Source of the DNA: Desulfobacterales bacterium
Lineage (GTDB): Bacteria; Desulfobacterota; Desulfobacteria; Desulfobacterales; UBA11574
DNA: 55,831 nucleotides
Direction: 5' to 3'
NCBI GenBank assembly: GCA_022340885.1
Contig: JAJDND010000201.1
Location: forward strand, 1 to 55,831
Position 1 is the first letter of the stretch; each line of letters begins with the position of its first letter. A model generated the notes under the pieces. The model made no database searches, was not told where the DNA came from, and saw only the letters and a list, made by a program, of their open reading frames with translations. Positions 9,563-24,141 of this stretch are shown here, in pieces. Made by a program: the position numbers and the translations under genes.

Positions 9563-11662
<2,100 letters not shown>

Positions 11663-11670
11663 TCAGCGAC

Positions 11671-11922
11671 CTATAACGGTCTGGCCAGCTTCGAGAGTTC
11701 TTCTTTTGCTTCGTCGATGATCTCGTAAAACCACATGACATCCTCGATGGTCAAGCGACCGGCCTTGCGCTGGGTTTCACCACCGTCTTTTCGTTTGAAA
11801 ATTCTCGGACCGATCTGAAGCTTGGGTTCGCCGTCACCGTATTGATTGATGGAGACCACCAATCCTGTTTCGTCACACTGCCATTTTTTTAAAATTTTGT
11901 CCTTTTCCGGTTCAAATGCCAT
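11671..11922 (-). CDS. Small conserved protein, possibly PC4-like
   Basis: Unrecognised protein of 83 residues, soluble and rich in charged residues. The core LQIGPRIFKRKDGG...RKAGRLTIEDVMWF, followed by an amphipathic helix, recalls the beta-sheet-plus-helix pattern of PC4/p15 single-strand-binding coactivators, but the match is weak. ATG 11922 is chosen because GGAGG lies 5 nt upstream; the in-frame ATG four codons earlier overlaps that Shine-Dalgarno. It stands between ligA and a cysteine-rich protein on the same strand. Confidence 0.65.
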   Translation of the reverse strand: MAFEPEKDKILKKWQCDETGLVVSINQYGDGEPKLQIGPRIFKRKDGGETQRKAGRLTIEDVMWFYEIIDEAKEELSKLARPL

Positions 11923-12004
11923 GTCATCCTCCATGTTTTTACCATGTATATAATACGTCCATTTTTAAATATGAACCCAAACGCTGTCAAATCCATATTG
12001 AAAA

Positions 12005-12526
12005 TCATGAAACAACCCGGATAAACTCGGCTTCCATTTTCCGCCGGCAGTCCTTGACCGTCTGAATCTGTCGGCTGAATTTATCCCGGGCATCGCAGGA
12101 TTTTCTAAGTAAAATCGCCTTCTGGGTAGGGCACAGATACCAGGTACAAATCCAGGGTCTTGATATCCTGGGCAAAACACAGCCTTTAGGTCTCCAGCAC
12201 CGGCAAACCTTTTTCAAATGGGAGCGAAGTTGTCTATCAGGAATCGGATGCCCGGCCAGATGGAGAAACACAAGATCCTTGAAATCCATCCATACTTCGG
12301 CCGATAGGCAACAGGGGGCCGGGCACCACGGGCATGTAGCGCGGCAAAGATCGTTCAGAAGTGTGAACATCGATTCCAGAGAATCTTCCATATTCCGTGC
12401 CAGCATCACTGCATTTTTCAATTCATCGCGATGCCGGTGGATGAGATAATCCAAATTCCGGTTGACGATTTGCCATGCGGCTTTCGATTCCCAAGGCGTT
12501 TCGGCACGGTCATAAATGTTTTTCAT
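12005..12526 (-). CDS. Cysteine-cluster protein (YkgJ-like), function unknown
   Basis: A protein of about 174 residues with an N-terminal helical part. A cysteine cluster follows: CPWCPAPCC, then CRCWRPKGC and CTWYLC. Spaced cysteines with an intervening acidic/hydrophobic segment (EVWMDFKDLVFLHLAG) resemble the putative zinc- or iron-chelating YkgJ/UPF0153 family, but identity is not certain. The ATG at 12526 has GAGTGA 5 nt upstream; an in-frame extension to 12628 is possible. It is divergent from the cytochrome c-rnf operon, across a gap with two palindromes. Confidence 0.6.
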   Translation of the reverse strand: MKNIYDRAETPWESKAAWQIVNRNLDYLIHRHRDELKNAVMLARNMEDSLESMFTLLNDLCRATCPWCPAPCCLSAEVWMDFKDLVFLHLAGHPIPDRQLRSHLKKVCRCWRPKGCVLPRISRPWICTWYLCPTQKAILLRKSCDARDKFSRQIQTVKDCRRKMEAEFIRVVS

Positions 12527-12799: not shown

Positions 12800-13243
12800 A
12801 TGACACCAAAAAGAGAACTTCAGATCGCTTTTGGCCTTATAATTATTTTGTTGTTAGTGGGTGTTATAAGCTATGCGGCCTTTCCGGCCAAACCCCCGGA
12901 AGTACCCATAAGAATGTATTATAAGAGCGTCGCCGGAAACGCGATGTTCGATCACAAAACGCATTTTGCAGAATCAGGCTATGCCCTCGACTGCACCCAA
13001 TGCCATCATCACCCCCCGTATCCCGAAAACCTTGATGATGCGATTTTAAAGTGCGGCTACTGCCATAAGGCCCTGGCCAAAGGTCAAAATTATCCTGATT
13101 CATGCCTCGACTGCCATGATGAGGCAGATCTTGAAGATTCAAAAATAGCTAAAAAATCAGACGCTTTTCATTCCCAGTGCATCGGATGCCATAAGGAAGC
13201 CGGATCAGGCCCGACAGATTGTAACGCGTGCCATGTTTTGTAA
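12800..13243 (+). CDS. Membrane-anchored pentahaem c-type cytochrome (class III-like)
   Basis: Periplasm-facing cytochrome of 147 residues. One transmembrane anchor or uncleaved signal lies at residues 9-29. Five CxxCH haem-binding motifs follow, at Cys65, Cys85, Cys102, Cys127 and Cys141, with spare histidines (His52, His55, His70, His71) for axial ligation, as in cytochrome c3/c7 folds. ATG 12800 with AAAGGA upstream is preferred to the in-frame TTG at 12749. It is the first gene of the rnf operon, 60 nt before rnfC. Cytochromes at this position in sulfate reducers and in Methanosarcina are thought to link Rnf to periplasmic electron carriers; that role here is inferred. Confidence 0.88.
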   Translation: MTPKRELQIAFGLIIILLLVGVISYAAFPAKPPEVPIRMYYKSVAGNAMFDHKTHFAESGYALDCTQCHHHPPYPENLDDAILKCGYCHKALAKGQNYPDSCLDCHDEADLEDSKIAKKSDAFHSQCIGCHKEAGSGPTDCNACHVL

Positions 13244-13303: not shown

Positions 13304-14602
13304 ATGATAAAAAGATCATTTATCGGTTTGATAAAACCCCGGATGAGGTACCAGGCCATTGAACTGACACCGCCGGAACCCAGGAAAATCCCGGCGCCGA
13401 AACAGGTCACGCTGCTCTTAAACGAACCTTACGACCCTTTTGGCCAGGGAAAATCCCCGCAGTTAAAAAAAGGCGACCCAATTAAAACCGGCCAAAAACT
13501 TGCTCTTTATGAAGACAGCGATGCCTATGTGGTTTCAAGTGCTACCGGAACCATATCCGCCTTATCCGCCTTGATCGGGGACTTCGGAAGGTCTTATACG
13601 GCCATTTCAATCGATGTTGCTGAAAATGAAGAGATTGACGAGCAATTTCCAGCCCTCGTAAAAGATACCTCCCTGGAGACGGTCAAACACTTTTTGACGT
13701 TTATCCCCGGAAATCTTCCGGATGTCATACTATCCCCCAATGGATCATCGACACCCATCGAAACCATCGTTATCTGCGGCGTTGACCGGGATCTCTTAAT
13801 CACCGCTAATCAACACACAGTGGTGAAAGAAAGCAGCTCGGTCAAACGCGGCGTTGAAATTTTAAAACAAATCACCGGCATCGATAATATTATCATCGCT
13901 TCTCCCGAACATCTGATGCAAGATGCCGGTCTCAGCGGCGCCGAAGTCCGGGTCGTTAATCCGGTTTATCCTGCCTCGCTTCCGAAATTGATTATGCGCG
14001 ATCTTTTAGGCCGGGTCGTCCCCGCCGGCAAAACCTGCGAAGATCTCGGAGTAGCCTTTATCAGCGTACAAGCGGTTGCATCCCTGGGCAAAGCATTCAA
14101 CGAGGGCAGGATACCGGTCTACAAGCATTTTAATTTAATCAACAAAGACGGGACCTCCGTGCTCGTGTCCGCCATCATTGGCACACCGGTCCGTGATATC
14201 TTTGCAGCTTTCAACATTGACGCCGGTGAAAAAGACCGCATTATTTTCGGCGGCCCCATGACCGGAGAGTCTATTTATTCCGAAGACCATCCAATTCAAC
14301 CGGACACCGATGCAGTCATGATACAGGATCAAAAAAGTCTGGCGCTGGTTTCGGACTATCCGTGCATCAACTGCAGCGAGTGCATTCCCATTTGCCCGGC
14401 AAAAATTCAGGTGAATATGCTGGTGCGCTTTTTAGAAGTGGGAAAATATCAGGAAGCCGCAGACGAGTATGACTTGTATTCTTGCATTGAATGCGGTCTG
14501 TGCAGCTTTGTATGTGTATCGAGGATACCGATTTTGCAATACATCAAGCTTGCAAAATATGAACTTGGCCGGATCAGCAGAGCGGAGGAGACGAATGTTT
14601 GA
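13304..14602 (+). CDS. rnfC: Rnf complex subunit RnfC (variant)
   Basis: Peripheral cytoplasmic subunit of the ion-pumping ferredoxin:NAD+ oxidoreductase, 432 residues. An N-terminal barrel-sandwich segment (QLKKGDPIKTGQKLALYE) is present, then the RnfC body (SVQAVASLGKAFNEGRIPV), then two 4Fe-4S motifs, CINCSECIPIC from Cys354 and CIECGLCSFVC from Cys394. Oddly, the canonical glycine-rich FMN/NADH loop (GGAGFPT type) is absent. The region around residues 128-145 reads KHFLTFIPGNLPDVILSP, and the usual ECEPY-type motif is replaced by GVDRDLL near 159-165. NADH oxidation at this subunit therefore looks doubtful. It overlaps rnfD by 8 nt. Confidence 0.88.
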   Translation: MIKRSFIGLIKPRMRYQAIELTPPEPRKIPAPKQVTLLLNEPYDPFGQGKSPQLKKGDPIKTGQKLALYEDSDAYVVSSATGTISALSALIGDFGRSYTAISIDVAENEEIDEQFPALVKDTSLETVKHFLTFIPGNLPDVILSPNGSSTPIETIVICGVDRDLLITANQHTVVKESSSVKRGVEILKQITGIDNIIIASPEHLMQDAGLSGAEVRVVNPVYPASLPKLIMRDLLGRVVPAGKTCEDLGVAFISVQAVASLGKAFNEGRIPVYKHFNLINKDGTSVLVSAIIGTPVRDIFAAFNIDAGEKDRIIFGGPMTGESIYSEDHPIQPDTDAVMIQDQKSLALVSDYPCINCSECIPICPAKIQVNMLVRFLEVGKYQEAADEYDLYSCIECGLCSFVCVSRIPILQYIKLAKYELGRISRAEETNV

Positions 14603-15554
14603 GCAGAAAAAATTCACGGTGTCACATGCGCCATTCTGGCATGTCGGGAGCTCAGTGTCCACCAGAAGTTATAACATCATATTCGCTGCGTTGCCGGCGG
14701 TCTTGTTCGGTGTTTTTACGTACGGCATACCCGCCGTCGGCGTCATTGCGCTTTCGGTGTCATCGGCTATTACATGGGAAATAGCCTTCAATAAAGTCGC
14801 AAAGCGCCCGCCCTGCATCGGGGACGGCAATGCAGCCATGATCGGCCTCTTGCTGGCCATGCTTCTGCCGGCGACGGCGCCTTGGTGGCTGGTCATCACC
14901 GGGACTTTTGTTGCTGTCATTATTGGCAAACAGATCTACGGGGGAATCGGCGCCAATCCTTTCAATCCGGTCCTGGTCAGCCTGGCCATCTTGACGTTAT
15001 CGTGGAAAAATTTTTTGGATTTCAACGAAGTTCTGGTAAATTACGATTTCAGCTATCCAATGGCCTATCCGCTCGCATCTCTCAAGCATTTCGGCGTATT
15101 CGCCATATCCAATCTCAAACCGGCGGCGCTTTTGATGGGCCAGCAATCCGGCGGCATCGGCGCGATCTTCGGGCTGGGTCTCATTCTGGGCGGTATTTAT
15201 CTAATCATCAGAGGATATATTCGGTGGGAGATATCCATCTCTTTTCTGGCCGGTGTATGGATCACCGCACTCCTGTTTAACATGGCCGATCCTGCCCATT
15301 ATGCCGGTCCTGTGTTCCATCTGGTAACCGGTTACACACTGATCGGCGCCTTTTTCCTGGCGACCGAGGATTCATCTTCACCGGTCAATTTTATCCCCAT
15401 GCTCATTTACGGCGCCAGCGCCGGCGTGTTGACGGTGCTGATCAGGAATATCGGCGCCTTTGCTGACGGCGTTGTCTTTGCCATTTTGATTGCAAATCTC
15501 ATTAACCCGCTTGTGGACAAAATCAGACCCAAAGCACTGGGAAAGGTTATTTAA
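14595..15554 (+). CDS. rnfD: Rnf complex membrane subunit RnfD
   Basis: Integral membrane subunit related to NqrB, 319 residues, with about nine or ten helices. Family signatures are the N-terminal PFWHVG/STRSYN region, CIGDGNAAMIGLLLAMLLP (74-92), the KQIYGGIGANPFNPVLVS stretch (112-129) and a C-terminal FFLATEDSSSPV motif. The S/TGAT-type threonine that normally carries covalent FMN is not visible: the equivalent region reads FAISNLKPAALLMG (169-182). Start ATG 14595 has GGAGGAG just upstream; upstream in-frame codons fall within rnfC. rnfG starts one base after the stop. Confidence 0.93.
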   Translation: MFEQKKFTVSHAPFWHVGSSVSTRSYNIIFAALPAVLFGVFTYGIPAVGVIALSVSSAITWEIAFNKVAKRPPCIGDGNAAMIGLLLAMLLPATAPWWLVITGTFVAVIIGKQIYGGIGANPFNPVLVSLAILTLSWKNFLDFNEVLVNYDFSYPMAYPLASLKHFGVFAISNLKPAALLMGQQSGGIGAIFGLGLILGGIYLIIRGYIRWEISISFLAGVWITALLFNMADPAHYAGPVFHLVTGYTLIGAFFLATEDSSSPVNFIPMLIYGASAGVLTVLIRNIGAFADGVVFAILIANLINPLVDKIRPKALGKVI

Positions 15555-15555
15555 G

Positions 15556-16185
15556 ATGCGTGAACTGATAAAAATGGTGGTCGTGCTGACGGTGTTGAGC
15601 GCTTTTTCCGGAGGACTTCTTGCCAGTCTCCGGAACGGCACAAAGGACAAGATTGAATACCAGCAGCTCAAATTCGTCAAAGGTCCTGCGATACTCGATA
15701 TCTTCAAAGGAGCTACCAATAACCCTCTTCTGGACCGCTTCAAGCTCAAAGACGGGACCGTTGAAAGAAGTTTCTTTGTCGGTAAATTTAACGGCAAAAC
15801 AGATACGGTCGCGTTTGAAAGTTACGGCAAAGGATTCGGTGGAGATATCGGACTGATGGTGGGCGTCAATCTGGATACGAATAAAATCGTCGGGGTCGGG
15901 GTCACGACACTCAGCGAAACGCCGGGGGTGGGATCACGGGCAAAGACAGATCCCAGCTTTGTGGCCCAGTTCAAAGGGCGTCCTTTGGAAGAAACCTTCA
16001 AAGTCAAGGCAGACGGCGGTCAGGTGGATGCCCTGTCCGGTGCCACCGTAACGTCACGGGGCGTCGCAGCCGGTTTGACCGATGCCGGTTTAATCTACAA
16101 ACGCCTGAAACCGGAACTGGAGAAAAAATTGAAAAACTTCTCCACAAAAGCCGTAAAGACCAAAAAGGGAGAAAAGAATGGCTAA
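15556..16185 (+). CDS. rnfG: Rnf complex flavoprotein subunit RnfG
   Basis: Periplasmic FMN-binding subunit anchored by one N-terminal helix (residues 5-25), 209 residues. It has the FMN-binding domain pattern: GKGFGGDIGLMVGVN, TLSETPGVGSRA, and the covalent flavinylation motif SGATVTS at 161-167, with Thr164 as the acceptor. The basic C-terminal tail is unusual but short. Start ATG 15556 begins one base after the rnfD stop, with AAAGG upstream. The 3' end overlaps rnfE by 8 nt, consistent with translational coupling. Confidence 0.95.
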   Translation: MRELIKMVVVLTVLSAFSGGLLASLRNGTKDKIEYQQLKFVKGPAILDIFKGATNNPLLDRFKLKDGTVERSFFVGKFNGKTDTVAFESYGKGFGGDIGLMVGVNLDTNKIVGVGVTTLSETPGVGSRAKTDPSFVAQFKGRPLEETFKVKADGGQVDALSGATVTSRGVAAGLTDAGLIYKRLKPELEKKLKNFSTKAVKTKKGEKNG

Positions 16186-16771
16186 ATCGATCACTCAGGA
16201 ATTCGTAAAAGGTTTATGGGAAGAAATTCCGCCGTTTCGCCTCGTTCTCGGTCTCTGCCCCACACTGGCTGTAACGAAAACGATTCAAGACGGTATCGGA
16301 ATGGGAGTGGCCACAACCTTTGTCCTGGTATGCTCGAATGTTCTGGTTTCGGCAATGCGAAATATCATACCTTCAAAGGTCAGGATCGCCGCTTTTATTA
16401 TCATTATCGCCACGTTTGTTACCGTCGTCGAGCTGTTGATGCAGGCGTTTACCTATCCGTTGTTTCTCAGTCTCGGCATATTCATTCCATTGATCGTTGT
16501 GAACTGTATTGTCCTGGGCCGGGCCGAAGCATTTGCGTCCAAAAACGCCATCATGCATTCACTGGCGGACGGTTTGGGCATCGGCATCGGGTTCACGCTG
16601 GCCCTGGCTTCCCTGGGGGCTGTCAGAGAAGTATTCGGCAGCGGAACTTTTTGGGGAGCACCGGTATTCGGCCCTTCCTTTCATCCTTTTTCCTTTATGA
16701 TCGAGGCGCCCGGCGCATTTGTCTGCCTCGGTCTGATGCTGTGTATCATGAACCTTGTGGGCAAAAAATAG
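16178..16771 (+). CDS. rnfE: Rnf complex membrane subunit RnfE
   Basis: Hydrophobic six-helix subunit (NqrD family) of 197 residues, part of the RnfA/RnfE pair in the membrane that coordinates a central iron-sulfur site. Signatures are VLGLCPTLAVTKT near residue 24, then PLIVVNCIVLGRAEAFASKN in the middle; the two conserved cysteines (CP and NC) are the expected FeS ligands. Start ATG overlaps the end of rnfG, preceded by GGGAGAA. rnfA begins 10 nt downstream. Confidence 0.95.
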   Translation: MAKSITQEFVKGLWEEIPPFRLVLGLCPTLAVTKTIQDGIGMGVATTFVLVCSNVLVSAMRNIIPSKVRIAAFIIIIATFVTVVELLMQAFTYPLFLSLGIFIPLIVVNCIVLGRAEAFASKNAIMHSLADGLGIGIGFTLALASLGAVREVFGSGTFWGAPVFGPSFHPFSFMIEAPGAFVCLGLMLCIMNLVGKK

Positions 16772-16781
16772 GAGACGATAG

Positions 16782-17357
16782 ATGGGCGATTACATAATTC
16801 TGGCCATTAGCTGCATTCTTGTCAACAATATTCTCTTGGCCCAGTATTTGGGCAATTGTCCCTTTCTGGGAACATCCAAAAAAATGGAAACCGCCGTAGG
16901 GATGGCCATGGCGGTCGTTTTTGTTTTGGTGCTTGCCGGCGTCATTACATGGCTGACCGAAACCTTTTTTTTAAAACCGTTCAATATGGAATTTCTCAGA
17001 ACGGTCGCATTTATTCTGGTCATCGCCTCACTGGTGCAGTTTGTGGAAATGTTTTTGAAAAAGAGCATCCCGGCCCTATATGCCGGGCTCGGCATATTTC
17101 TGCCGTTGATTACCACCAACTGCGCTGTCATGGGTGTTTGTCTCATCAATATCAAAGAAGAATACACCTTTATGCAGGCCCTTGTTGCATCATTTGCGTA
17201 TGCGGTCGGGTTCGGCCTTGCCCTGATTCTTTTTGCCGGTGTGCGGGAACGTATTCTGCTCGCCAGGGTACCCAAGCCGCTTCAGGATACATCCATCGGC
17301 CTGGTTACGGCGGGCATGCTCTCACTTGCTTTTTTTGCGTTTAAAGGGATGGTGTGA
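16782..17357 (+). CDS. rnfA: Rnf complex membrane subunit RnfA
   Basis: Hydrophobic six-helix subunit (NqrE family) of 191 residues, the partner of RnfE. Signatures are NNILLAQYLGNCPFLGTSKK at residues 15-34 and GIFLPLITTNCAVMGVCL near 105-122; the paired NC cysteines should ligate the intramembrane cluster with RnfE. The Shine-Dalgarno GGAGA lies just before ATG 16782. A 110-nt gap with heptamer repeats and a small hairpin separates it from rnfB. Confidence 0.95.
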   Translation: MGDYIILAISCILVNNILLAQYLGNCPFLGTSKKMETAVGMAMAVVFVLVLAGVITWLTETFFLKPFNMEFLRTVAFILVIASLVQFVEMFLKKSIPALYAGLGIFLPLITTNCAVMGVCLINIKEEYTFMQALVASFAYAVGFGLALILFAGVRERILLARVPKPLQDTSIGLVTAGMLSLAFFAFKGMV

Positions 17358-17467: not shown

Positions 17468-19558
17468 GTGTTAACAGCACTTTTTTTTATGTTGGGGCTG
17501 GGGTTGGTATGCGGCGTCGTACTGAGCGTTGCCTCAAAGGTCTTTTATGTTTATGAGGACCCTCGTATTGCAGAGGTGGAATCTTTCACCGCCGGTGCCA
17601 ACTGCGGCGGCTGCGGGTATGCCGGATGTTCGGCCGCCGCCGTTGCCGTTGTGGCCGGTGAAGCGCCGCCGAGCGTCTGTATTGTCGCCGGCCCCGAATC
17701 GGCGGCAAACATTGCGGCGGTTATGGGCGTCGATCCGGGGACTGCGGAACCTCTTATTTCATACAACACCTGCCGTGGGGGCGATCGTGCGGAAGAAAAA
17801 TATTACTACATGGGCATCAGGAGTTGTCGGGCAACCGCCGCGATGTCCGGCGGTGAACGTCAATGCCCCGTGGGATGTATCGGTTTCGGTGACTGTGTGA
17901 CCGCCTGTGCGTTTAACGCACTTAAAATGGGACCCCATGGATATCCCGTGGTGGACCAGATAAAATGTGTGGGGTGCGGTGCATGTGAAAAAGCGTGCCC
18001 CAAGGATATTATGCAGATCAAAACCATGTCCCAGAAACTGCTGCATCTCAACCAGTATGACGATCGCATTGCACCATGCCAGCAAACTTGTCCGGCTGAA
18101 ATCGACATCCCGAAATATATTCATCAAATCAAAATCGGCGATTATGAAGGCGCCGTCAACACCATCAGGGAAAGAAATCCGCTCCTGCTGGCCTGCGGCC
18201 GAGTGTGCCCCCATCCGTGTGAAGATTATTGCCGCAGGGGATTGGAGGATGAAGCGGTCTCCATTAACCAGTTGAAACGTTTTGCCGCCGATTATGAAAT
18301 GAAATCCGGGCGGCGGCTGACCATTTCCTGCGCGCCGGATACCGGCAAAAAGATTGCAGTTATCGGCGGAGGCCCGGCAGGTTTAAGCTGTGCATTCTTT
18401 CTCCGCCGCCTGGGGCACGGTGTGACCATTTTTGACGCCATGCCGAAGCTCGGGGGAATGATTCGTTACGGAATCCCGGAATACCGGCTGCCCAAAGAAG
18501 TTCTGGCATGGGAGATTCAGGGAATCCTGGATTTGGGCATCGAACATAAACCCAACATGATGCTGGGCCGGGATTTTGACATCGGATCGCTGATGGCAGC
18601 AGGTTTCGATGCTGTTTTTCTGGGAATCGGGGCTTGGAAAGACTACTCCCTGCGCGTTGAAGGTGAGGATCTGAAGGGCTGCTACACCGGAATCAATTTT
18701 CTCACCAATTTTGCGGTGTGGCAACAAGAAAAACCAAATGAACCGCGGCCTTTCGTGGGAAAGCGATGTGCCGTCATCGGCGGCGGGAACACCGCCATCG
18801 ACTGCGTTCGAACGCTGGTTCGTCTGGGAGCCCAGGAAGTATCCATCGTTTACCGCCGGACCCGAAAGGAAATGCCGGCCAATATGGTCGAAATCGAAGC
18901 GGCGGAACATGAGGGCGTCAAGTTCACATTTTTGGCAGCCCCCACCCAGGTTGTCGGTGATGAAGAAGGCAAAGTTATCGGACTGGAATATCAAAAGATG
19001 GAACTCGGCGAGCCCGATGCCAGCGGCAGACGGAGACCGGTTCCCATCGAAGGTTCCGAAACGGTCATGGATATCGATATGCTGATCACTGCGATCGGTC
19101 AGGGGCCGGATGTTTTCTTCAAGGATGAAAGCAAGCGGCTGGACAAAGATCTGAATATTACTCGCTGGAATACCATTGATTCAAAGGACCCCGTAGCCCT
19201 TCAATCGAGCATACCCTATATTTTTACCGGGGGAGATGCCGCAACCGGCGCCGATCTGGTGGTTTCGGCCATCGGGGGAGGACGTCGCGCCGCCCGATCC
19301 ATCCATATGTATCTTACCGGCAAGGATGTAACACCGCCGCAAAGGACGCTGTTTAGAAACCACATTCCGGTCTCCATATTTGAATCGGTTCCCGGGATAA
19401 CGAAATTACCCAGAACCAAGATGCCGGAATTGCCGGTGGAGGACCGAATCAAGTCGTTTGTCGAAGCGGATCTGGTTATCAGTGAGGAAGAGGCACTGTA
19501 TGAATCGAACCGCTGCCTGCAGTGTTGCCTGACCTGCTATGACAAGGATGTTGCTTAA
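17468..19558 (+). CDS. rnfB: RnfB fused to a GltD/NfnB-type FAD/NAD(P) oxidoreductase
   Basis: A 696-residue fusion. Residues 1-25 form the RnfB membrane anchor. Cys46, 49, 54 and 71 form the RnfB 4Fe-4S domain (NCGGCGYAGC). Two ferredoxin-type 4Fe-4S motifs follow: Cys133/137/143/147 and Cys167/170/173/177. From about residue 200 the protein becomes a GltD/NfnB-like oxidoreductase: an FeS N-domain (Cys204, 208, 243, 247, 251, 255), FAD site VIGGGPAGLS (298-307), NAD(P) site VIGGGNTAIDC (436-446), and closing FAD motif TGGDAATGADLVVSAIGGG (587-605). A cysteine-rich tail (CLQCCLTC) ends it. Ordinary RnfB stops after its ferredoxin domains. Start GTG 17468 has a perfect AGGAGG 5 nt upstream. 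The function, ferredoxin/NAD(P)H exchange within Rnf, is inferred. Confidence 0.93.
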   Translation: MLTALFFMLGLGLVCGVVLSVASKVFYVYEDPRIAEVESFTAGANCGGCGYAGCSAAAVAVVAGEAPPSVCIVAGPESAANIAAVMGVDPGTAEPLISYNTCRGGDRAEEKYYYMGIRSCRATAAMSGGERQCPVGCIGFGDCVTACAFNALKMGPHGYPVVDQIKCVGCGACEKACPKDIMQIKTMSQKLLHLNQYDDRIAPCQQTCPAEIDIPKYIHQIKIGDYEGAVNTIRERNPLLLACGRVCPHPCEDYCRRGLEDEAVSINQLKRFAADYEMKSGRRLTISCAPDTGKKIAVIGGGPAGLSCAFFLRRLGHGVTIFDAMPKLGGMIRYGIPEYRLPKEVLAWEIQGILDLGIEHKPNMMLGRDFDIGSLMAAGFDAVFLGIGAWKDYSLRVEGEDLKGCYTGINFLTNFAVWQQEKPNEPRPFVGKRCAVIGGGNTAIDCVRTLVRLGAQEVSIVYRRTRKEMPANMVEIEAAEHEGVKFTFLAAPTQVVGDEEGKVIGLEYQKMELGEPDASGRRRPVPIEGSETVMDIDMLITAIGQGPDVFFKDESKRLDKDLNITRWNTIDSKDPVALQSSIPYIFTGGDAATGADLVVSAIGGGRRAARSIHMYLTGKDVTPPQRTLFRNHIPVSIFESVPGITKLPRTKMPELPVEDRIKSFVEADLVISEEEALYESNRCLQCCLTCYDKDVA

Positions 19559-19588: not shown

Positions 19589-19660
19589 AATTTCTAATAC
19601 AAAACCCCTCTGCAGGCCCGAAGAACTCTGGCTTCCACATTGCGGGGCAGGCTTTTAATC

Positions 19661-20194
19661 ATGGTAAAAGTCGTTGATATTCAGGCCTACCGGGCCAAGA
19701 CCCTTAAAGAACGGGTTTTTGGCCCCTGGCAAAAGCGCTTCGACGAATCCTTCGCCATCGACATCAAACTTTCAGAACTCTCTGACAAAACCCTCTATTA
19801 TTTGGCCCAGCCCGGAGATAACAGCGCCGCCGCCTATTATGAACTCATCATGGGAATTCTCGATTTGGGACCGGCGACAAAGTTCAACGACCTTCGGAAC
19901 AGAACGCAGATGCGGGTGGTGGACATTCATCTCTTTTTGGCCGACCAGGTGCGGTTTGAAATCATGCGACGATTGAATTGGCTCGTTCATCTTCCCTGCA
20001 AAATGCATGACCTCGTTCAATTGGTTCAAGAATTCGACAGCGTAAAACCTGCCTGCAAAGCCACCCCACCTGAACTGGCGGCATCACACCCGGAATACGA
20101 CGCTTATCGAAAGCTTGCCCACGGCGATAAGGAGGTGTTCATTCGCCGTAAGCTGCAAGACGCTTTGGAAGCCTTCGAACACCGTTTAATGTAA
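19661..20194 (+). CDS. Conserved protein of unknown function
   Basis: Not recognised. The 177-residue soluble protein starts MVKVVDIQAYRAK. It is rich in helix-forming residues, with a middle segment TKFNDLRNRTQMRVVDIHLF and a charged C-terminus ending ALEAFEHRL. There is no signal peptide, membrane segment or known cofactor motif. ATG 19661 is preferred to a TTG seven codons upstream, though neither has a strong Shine-Dalgarno. It lies between the rnf terminator and a palindromic repeat, so it is probably transcribed alone. Sequence quality looks like that of a real gene (continuous frame, codon use like its neighbours). Confidence 0.65.
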   Translation: MVKVVDIQAYRAKTLKERVFGPWQKRFDESFAIDIKLSELSDKTLYYLAQPGDNSAAAYYELIMGILDLGPATKFNDLRNRTQMRVVDIHLFLADQVRFEIMRRLNWLVHLPCKMHDLVQLVQEFDSVKPACKATPPELAASHPEYDAYRKLAHGDKEVFIRRKLQDALEAFEHRLM

Positions 20195-22110: not shown

Positions 22111-24120
22111 TTACAATAAGAAAGGCACCATCAGCAGTGCAACGACATTCAGAATCTTGATCATCGGGTTGATGGCCGGGCCTGCGGTATCCTTGTACGG
22201 ATCGCCGACGGTGTCGCCGGTAACCGCGGCTTTATGGGCATCGCTCCCTTTGCCGCCCAAATGACCGTCTTCGATGTATTTCTTGGCATTGTCCCAGGCC
22301 GCCCCGCCGGTGGTCATGGAAATCGCGACAAAAAGACCGGTAACGATACTGCCGATCAGAAGGCCGCCGAGGGCCACCTTGCCCAGCAAAAATCCGACAA
22401 TAAGCGGTGCGACAACAGGCAACAGGGCCGGTATCATCATTTCTTTCAAGGCAAACTTGGTTACAATATCCACACAGGTGCTGTAATCCGGCTTTGCGGT
22501 TCCTTCCATAATTCCGGGAATTTCTCGAAACTGTCGTCGGACTTCTTCTACAACAGCCGCGCCGGCTTTTCCGACCGCCTTCATGGCGATGGATGCAAAA
22601 AGGTACGGCAGGAGGCCGCCGATAAAAAGACCGATAATAACATTTACGTCACCAAGATCGAACCTTATGCCGGCCTTACCGCCTCTAATTGTAAACTCAA
22701 ACACATAACATGCGAAAAGAACCAGCGCCGCGAGACCGGCCGAACCGATGGCATAGCCTTTGGTGACGGCCTTGGTGGTATTTCCCACCGCGTCCAGCGG
22801 ATCGGTCACCGCACGGACGCTTTCATCCATTTCCGCCATTTCCGCGATACCGCCGGCGTTGTCGGTAATCGGACCGTATGCATCAATGGCAATAACCATA
22901 CCGGTCATGGAAAGCATGGACATGGCCGCCATGGCAATTCCGTAGAGACCCGCCAGCTTGAAAGAAATAAAGATAGCGGCACAAATGACGAGGACCGGTG
23001 CGGCAGTGGCCTGCATGCTAACGGCCAAACCGGCGATAATATTGGTTGCATGGCCGGTGGTGGAGGCGTCCGCCACGCCTTTGACCGGCGAATAAATACC
23101 GGTATAAAACTCTGTGATAATCACGATGAGAACGGTCAGGACAAGACCGCAGAGCGCCGAATAAAAAATGGACATGGGGGTAAGATCGCCCAAGCCGGTC
23201 ATCAACTTATTACAAACATAATAGAACCCGATTGCGGCAAGGATTGCAGAACCGAACATACCTTTGTAAAGCGCCCCCATAATATACCCGCTGCCGCCCA
23301 ATCTTACGAAAAAGATAGCGATAATGGATGCGATAATGGAAATGGCGCCGATGACCAGGGGAAATTCTGTGGCCATGATAACCTTGGGAAACATCAGATG
23401 GCCGATCAGCATGGCGGCGACGGCGGTGACTGCATAGGTTTCAAAAAGGTCGGCGGCCATACCGGCACAGTCTCCCACGTTATCGCCCACGTTGTCGGCG
23501 ATAACCGCGGGATTTCTCGGATCGTCCTCGGGGATGCCGGCTTCAACCTTGCCGACAAGATCCGCACCCACGTCAGCGCCTTTGGTGAAAATGCCACCGC
23601 CAAGACGTGCAAAGATCGAAATCAGACTTCCGCCGAATCCAAGGGCCACCAGTGCGACAACGTCATGGGTCACGGTGTAAAATCCTGCTACGGCGGTCAA
23701 GGCCAGACCTGCAACCATCATACCGGTCACGGATCCGCCTTTAAAAGCCAGGGAAAGACCCTTGGCCAGACCGCCTTTGGCAGCCTCTGCAGTCCTGACA
23801 TTGGCCAGTACCGACACACGCATGCCGATATACCCGGCCGAATAAGAAGCGGTGGCGCCAATTAAAAATCCGATGGCGGTTTTTATGCCAAGCGTAAAGG
23901 CAATAATCACAAAAATAATCGCACCGGCAACACCGACACTTTTGAGCTGGCGGTTCAGGTAGGCGACCGCACCCTCTTTGATAGCACCGGCAATTTCCTG
24001 CATCCTCTCATTTCCGGCCGGTGCCCCTTTGACAACGCCGGCAATGATGAGGGCAAATACGACGCCTGCAACACCGACCAGCGTGCAATACAACGGCAAA
24101 TTGTGTAATACAGCTTCCAT
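22111..24120 (-). CDS. hppA: K+-independent H+-translocating membrane pyrophosphatase
   Basis: Integral membrane enzyme that couples pyrophosphate hydrolysis to proton export, conserving energy from biosynthetic PPi. The 669 residues contain about 16 helices. Active-site motifs are [21 protein letters not shown] and [18 protein letters not shown]. The ion-dependence site reads [17 protein letters not shown] with Lys450 and Thr453; these two residues mark the K+-independent, proton-pumping class (K+-dependent enzymes have Ala at both). Start ATG 24120 is preferred because GGAGG lies 5 nt upstream of it and inside the longer frame. It is the last gene of the ispE-to-hppA run and is followed by a strong terminator. 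Confidence 0.95.
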
Positions 24121-24141
24121 TCTTTCCTCCATCTGAATTGC

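Follow-up and report, generated by a model that had tools for sequence, protein, structure and literature searches.

Positions 1 to 55,831 of contig JAJDND010000201.1 (Desulfobacterales bacterium, assembly GCA_022340885.1), the whole of the stretch analysed and called here the window, encode a complex of the Rnf2 (Tol2-type) kind, in which rnfB is fused in frame to a StnC/NfnB-type oxidoreductase module with a predicted preference for NADP(H). Sequence comparison establishes that a nucleotide-binding module has been gained on RnfB and that the FMN/NADH loops have been lost on RnfC, and it is likely that the nicotinamide site itself was relocated from RnfC to RnfB, becoming NADP(H)-specific. 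The reading that we favour, and consider reasonably probable as a whole, is that of a pump in which electrons from this relocated site would pass via RnfA/E, G and D to a cytochrome c or to a protein docked on RnfC.

The fused gene (17468..19558, + strand, as all operon coordinates below) starts with GTG and is open over 696 codons, giving a protein of 696 aa. Its RnfB part comprises a predicted membrane anchor helix at residues 2-25 (17471..17542), with the hydropathy maximum from residue 1; the RnfB [4Fe-4S] domain with NCGGCGYAGC...C at residues 43-72 (17594..17683; Pfam PF04060); and two [4Fe-4S] ferredoxin motifs at residues 133-181 (17864..18010; Fer4 models, the dicluster match covering residues 137-181), the cysteines of which are invariant among 103 sequences. 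These are followed by a Fer4_20 cluster domain at residues 202-280 (18071..18307; PF14691, 85 bits) containing C204, C208, C247, C251 and C255, and by a Pyr_redox_2 match in Pfam at residues 295-604, within which lie the FAD-binding motif GGGPAG (18365..18382), the residue R340 (18485..18487), aligned with P. furiosus NfnL R201 and StnC R239, the NADP-domain motif GGGNTA (18779..18796) and Y462-R463-R464 (18851..18859), which a column map equates with the NADP 2'-phosphate motif Y310-R311-R312 of NfnB (criterion of PMC7596348). The C-terminus carries a motif of C683, C686 and C690 (19514..19537). Since the N-terminal ~200 aa match NCBIfam RnfB models and residues 195-690 glutamate-synthase-like ones, the single frame joining RnfB to an FAD/NAD(P) module, as proposed in the first-pass annotation, is confirmed by Pfam and NCBIfam domains across the 696 aa.

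As judged from both sequence and a predicted structure, the oxidoreductase module resembles GltD and NfnB less than it does StnC/NfnC, from the bifurcating transhydrogenases of three subunits. The best solved relatives by sequence were the NfnABC/StnABC subunits 9bov, 9n5u and 8oh5, ahead of NfnB and GltD. A structure model built from 67 aligned homologues (pLDDT 89.3, pTM 0.86), superseding an earlier one made with 15 sequences (pLDDT 60), matched in the VIA comparison 9bov_A with Z 41.8 and 8oh5_C with Z 40.9, at an rmsd of 1.9 over ~470 residues, and the NfnB and GltD chains with Z ~29-32. As the VIA matches span mainly residues 199-653, they say little on the RnfB half, which rests on sequence. 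Identity as a glutamate synthase subunit was rejected, with no GltB large subunit in the operon and the better match to StnC/NfnC. In a column map to 4ylf, C204, C208, C247, C251 and C255 correspond to T. maritima NfnB C47, C51, C90, C96 and C100 (cluster ligand numbering of PMC7596348), and the NfnB glutamate ligand E117 corresponds to lysine K270. A weak phmmer match of 9.9 bits (query 648-686 vs 4ylf 4-42) puts C683 and C686, invariant in 102/102 sequences extending that far, on NfnB C39 and C42, and therefore the segment that opens NfnB at its N-terminus seems to be permuted to the C-terminus of the fused RnfB; in StnC-type chains of the same alignment it likewise stands at the C-terminus. 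The seven NfnB cluster cysteines are thus all present, five on the N-terminal side of the module and two at its C-terminal end, and of the earlier GltD/NfnB-type assignment the Nfn-type NAD(P) character stands, the closest solved relatives being StnABC/NfnABC subunits and not GltD.

The motif Y-R-R has been reported to hold the phosphate in NfnB, and the YRR-bearing DsrL-2 to be strictly NADP(H)-dependent (PMC7596348). By this motif, the nicotinamide site of the fused RnfB is likely NADP(H)-specific, so that the NAD(P)H handling first proposed within RnfB keeps its nucleotide-binding module and is narrowed to predicted NADP(H). Among the 103 distinct sequences, 72 carry a GxGN-type NADP motif together with YRR, 71 of these with the RnfB N-terminus; the other 31 form a diverged set, none with YRR and mostly without an intact NADP motif. 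The presence or absence of YRR tracks the overall module identity (>=53% vs <=48%, respectively).

The fused rnfB is the last of a seven-gene run, cyt c-rnfC-D-G-E-A-B, encoding all six Rnf subunits A, B, C, D, E and G. The first gene specifies a small multihaem cytochrome c of class III (c3-like), anchored in the membrane and with five CxxCH motifs (12800..13243; PF02085, 43.3 bits), followed by a degenerate rnfC (13304..14602), rnfD (14595..15554; TIGR01946, 227 bits), rnfG, FMN-binding (15556..16185; NF045876, 249 bits; PF04205), rnfE (16178..16771; TIGR01948, 247 bits) and rnfA (16782..17357; TIGR01943, 245 bits). The cytochrome leads the operon in 46 of 60 fused-RnfB operons; 14 of the 60 are without such a cytochrome at the sensitivity used, and it is therefore not a constant companion of the fused Rnf. 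Neither an NfnA (FNR-type) partner nor NuoE/NuoF partners nor a separate Nfn complex were found in the operon of the window, where the fused protein stops after the module, without a NuoG-like C-terminus; one NfnA-like gene is present elsewhere in the genome (contig C58). The source genome (3.55 Mb in 228 contigs, 89% complete) holds no RnfC above the canonical cut-off, and thus nothing that points to a canonical Rnf beside the fused one, and in the search for Na+-NQR the NqrF model stayed below the cut-off. Directly 3' of the fusion, a 184-aa ORF (19640-20194, +) without a family match is kept, at 64-71%, in close relatives only, and a putative membrane-bound pyrophosphatase gene (22111-24132, -) lies near the rnf operon.

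The fusion recurs at full length in most of 96 relatives, with 58-87% identity, and the search across genomes for proteins spanning RnfB and GltD-type domains, suggested by the first reading, returned 71 distinct homologues in which both halves are present and the NADP site is intact. The carriers include Desulfosarcina alkanivorans, a Desulfobacula MAG, Desulfocarbo indianensis and a Pseudodesulfovibrio MAG, as well as the MAG UBA6099 (labelled UBP15), which stands outside Desulfobacterales; the closest named contig found (L150, 82% identity) is from an uncultured Desulfobacterales bacterium. In a phylum sample of 198 genomes, matches at E <= 1e-150 were obtained in 28. Because the fusion is full length in relatives of the same order and in genomes outside it, it is not an assembly error, and a mis-join or frameshift was rejected with it, the same frame being found in dozens of genomes. 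A single origin of the fusion fits both the tree built on the RnfB part and that built on the module, some branches being poorly supported. Among individual loci, L134 (one-contig genome G008, 10176-12263) has an in-frame TAA splitting the fusion between the FAD and NADP domains, and L230-L233 encode ferredoxin-GltD proteins of ~600 aa that have no RnfB anchor, the majority adjoining putative genes of a 2-oxoacid:ferredoxin oxidoreductase and succinyl-CoA synthetase.

The RnfC subunit of the window reaches 172 bits against TIGR01945 (cut-off 246) and belongs to a group clearly separated from the canonical copies, which score >360 bits. In the alignments it retains the eight ferredoxin cysteines (2x4), at Cys 354-404 (14363..14515), and has its FMN/NADH loops GxGGAxFP and ECEPYLT replaced; Complex1_51K stays below the cut-off and no SLBB match was found. 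That the fusion is accompanied by an RnfC that has lost its NADH loop, set as a check at the outset, was borne out in the operons with both genes readable: a fused RnfB is accompanied by a loop-less RnfC in 60/60, and a loop-bearing RnfC by a short RnfB in 21/21, none of them fused, although these are related sequences and not independent events (the L096 loop, GQGGAAFP, was scored as loop-bearing by eye). As several genomes hold one canonical Rnf and one of the Rnf2 type, the coupling goes beyond lineage alone. It is strong from the fusion to the RnfC loop loss and not in reverse, the exceptions among the loop-less operons being two with a short RnfB (L112 and L113), the one with the stop-split fusion (L134) and 14 without RnfB in reach. 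The short RnfB of L112 and L113, which the RnfB tree puts amid the fused copies, either predates the fusion or has since lost the module. The loci L117, L120-L122, L124, L125 and L127 have the order cytochrome-rnfC-D-G-E-A, with a loop-less RnfC and no RnfB in reach, and in the genomes G026 and G089 a fused RnfB stands alone elsewhere (L041 and L040, respectively).

Such a fusion is known in kind, as the "Tol2-type/Rnf2" complex, since it has been described in PMC5109826 and PMC11887813. The former (2016, citing 2013 work) reports in Desulfobacula toluolica Tol2 a divergent Rnf with an RnfB of ~700 aa carrying NAD+-binding sites and an RnfC without the NADH and soluble-ligand-binding domains; Desulfococcus multivorans also has an Rnf2, the mode of action of which was said to await experiments (PMC5109826). 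In PMC11887813 (2025), Rnf2 is assigned to the Desulfobacteraceae core genome, and in both papers it appears as constitutive, abundant and seen in the proteomes. The review PMC12174285 makes no mention of Desulfo- organisms or of NADP. The supposition that the fusion is uncharacterised consequently holds for its biochemistry, whereas accounts of the fusion, and of the change in RnfC, were already published. With its 696-aa RnfB bearing an FAD/NAD(P) module, its RnfC without NADH/FMN and SLBB domains and its cytochrome c gene, the window is another member of this type, NADP(H) being predicted here vs NAD+ in PMC5109826. What is added is the assignment to NADP(H), the extent of the link to RnfC and the diverged copies, together with the StnC/NfnC kinship and the permuted cysteines.

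In the favoured reading of Rnf2 as a pump with its nicotinamide site on RnfB, the likely wire would run from NADP(H) through FAD, the Fer4_20 clusters and the RnfB ferredoxin clusters to RnfA/E, and entry of ferredoxin at the RnfB clusters would probably still be possible. Less firmly, electrons of NADPH and/or ferredoxin might pass through RnfA/E, G and D with pumping of Na+ or H+, and might leave by the operon's c-type cytochrome to the quinone pool or by the RnfC clusters to a cytoplasmic protein. The cytochrome is a fair output candidate because the Rnf of Methanosarcina acetivorans, which makes no use of NAD(P), works with a cytochrome c (PMC4023990). The canonical Rnf of A. woodii and C. 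tetanomorphum (7zc6, 9eri) shares with the window RnfA, D, E, G and the N-terminal part of RnfB, but there RnfB has ~300 aa and RnfC binds FMN and NAD+ at the loops replaced in the window. By analogy, the fused Rnf2 may parallel the proposed change from Rnf to Nqr (PMC4014512), in which the NADH site came with NqrF and disappeared from NqrA: in Na+-NQR, as in the window, the nicotinamide site stands on the electron-input subunit and none is left on the RnfC/NqrA subunit. However, NqrF is an unrelated reductase, and NqrA is also without clusters, whereas the RnfC of the window keeps two, and therefore a cytoplasmic partner would be favoured over quinone alone. It counts against the favoured reading that the authors of PMC5109826 wrote NAD+ and not NADP+.

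Other readings of the same operon were weighed. The hybrid of Rnf and Nfn suggested in the first-pass annotation, specified here as a bifurcation in which the FAD of RnfB would send one electron of NADPH to the pump and the other to ferredoxin, or in reverse would combine electrons of ferredoxin and of the pump into NADPH, appears rather unlikely. It draws on R340, invariant in 103/103 and equivalent to a residue tied to the bifurcating FAD and its low-potential semiquinone (PMC7483475), on the seven of seven NfnB cluster cysteines and on bifurcating enzymes as the closest solved relatives. Yet R340 is equally invariant in the copies without the NADP motif, and therefore may serve FAD binding or structure, the ligand E117 is replaced by K270, and the Nfn-type module on RnfB, the part of the suggestion that stands, has no NfnA- or NuoEF-type partner in the operon. 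The known counterparts differ: StnABC/NfnABC (8oh5, 9bov, 9n5u) share with the window the NADP(H)/FAD module, YRR and the C-terminal cysteine motif, but the Stn module has a NuoG-like extension and NuoE-/NuoF-like partner subunits (PMC7483475) where that of the window is fused to RnfB and a pump; NfnAB (4ylf, 5jca) and GltBD share the FAD/NADP(H) fold and cluster cysteines, with the NfnA or GltB that the operon lacks and without the displaced terminal segment.

Still less probable is a plain membrane-anchored ferredoxin:NADP+ oxidoreductase, passing electrons between ferredoxin and NADP(H) inside RnfB, with the pump receiving part of the flux or none. The ferredoxin clusters do directly precede the NADP module in one chain, and outside rnf operons there are ferredoxin-GltD relatives of ~600 aa that have no anchor (L230-L234), but rnfCDGEA adjoin the fusion in most relatives, and a bypass would not call for the change in RnfC that accompanies the one in RnfB. 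A comparably low probability is given to Rnf2 as a maker of low-potential ferredoxin, with NADPH entering at RnfB and the ion gradient driving electrons to ferredoxin on the RnfC clusters; the only cofactor sites still recognisable in RnfC are indeed two ferredoxin-type clusters, but the cytochrome gene would be left unexplained, and the ferredoxin side of canonical Rnf is RnfB, not RnfC (PMC12174285).

The diverged copies point to a further variation. Fusions without YRR were found within rnf operons, RnfC again being loop-less, at L042, L170, L172, L173, L178, L245-L247 and L249; the nicotinamide site on RnfB is therefore not always needed. In the trees, some branches of which are poorly supported, the copies without YRR fall into two or more distinct groups. 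At L172 (Spirochaetes) and L178 (Candidatus Aminicenantes), NuoE- and NuoF-like genes closely follow the rnf operon; L178 also encodes a 1022-aa GltD-like protein. The loci L047, L048, L052, L053 and L183 carry, in this order, NuoE, DRTGG protein, NuoF, RnfB::StnC and RseC, the fusion being without the NADP motif and no rnf pump genes adjoining; L179 has partly the same arrangement. This pump-less operon looks, from its gene content, like a membrane-anchored Stn-type complex, its gene set being that of StnA/StnB/StnC (PMC7483475) plus the RnfB anchor, and a literature search of limited coverage found no published account of such a set. It is conceivable, though tentative, that RnfB::StnC is a modular platform for electron entry: the form of the window would take NADP(H) itself, the diverged forms, with the NADP site decayed in at least two lineages, would be served NADH by the nearby NuoE/NuoF, either in rnf operons (L172, L178) or, where there is no pump, in an Stn-like enzyme anchored to the membrane, and the fused FAD may bifurcate.

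If the nicotinamide of the RnfB site is NADP(H), the published schemes placing Rnf2 on the NADH pool would need changing. The YRR motif together with the RnfC loops would offer a simple sequence test for the pool used by a given Rnf, and, if the favoured reading is true, the kind of rebuilding of an Rnf that gave Na+-NQR would have taken place a second time, independently, in Rnf2.
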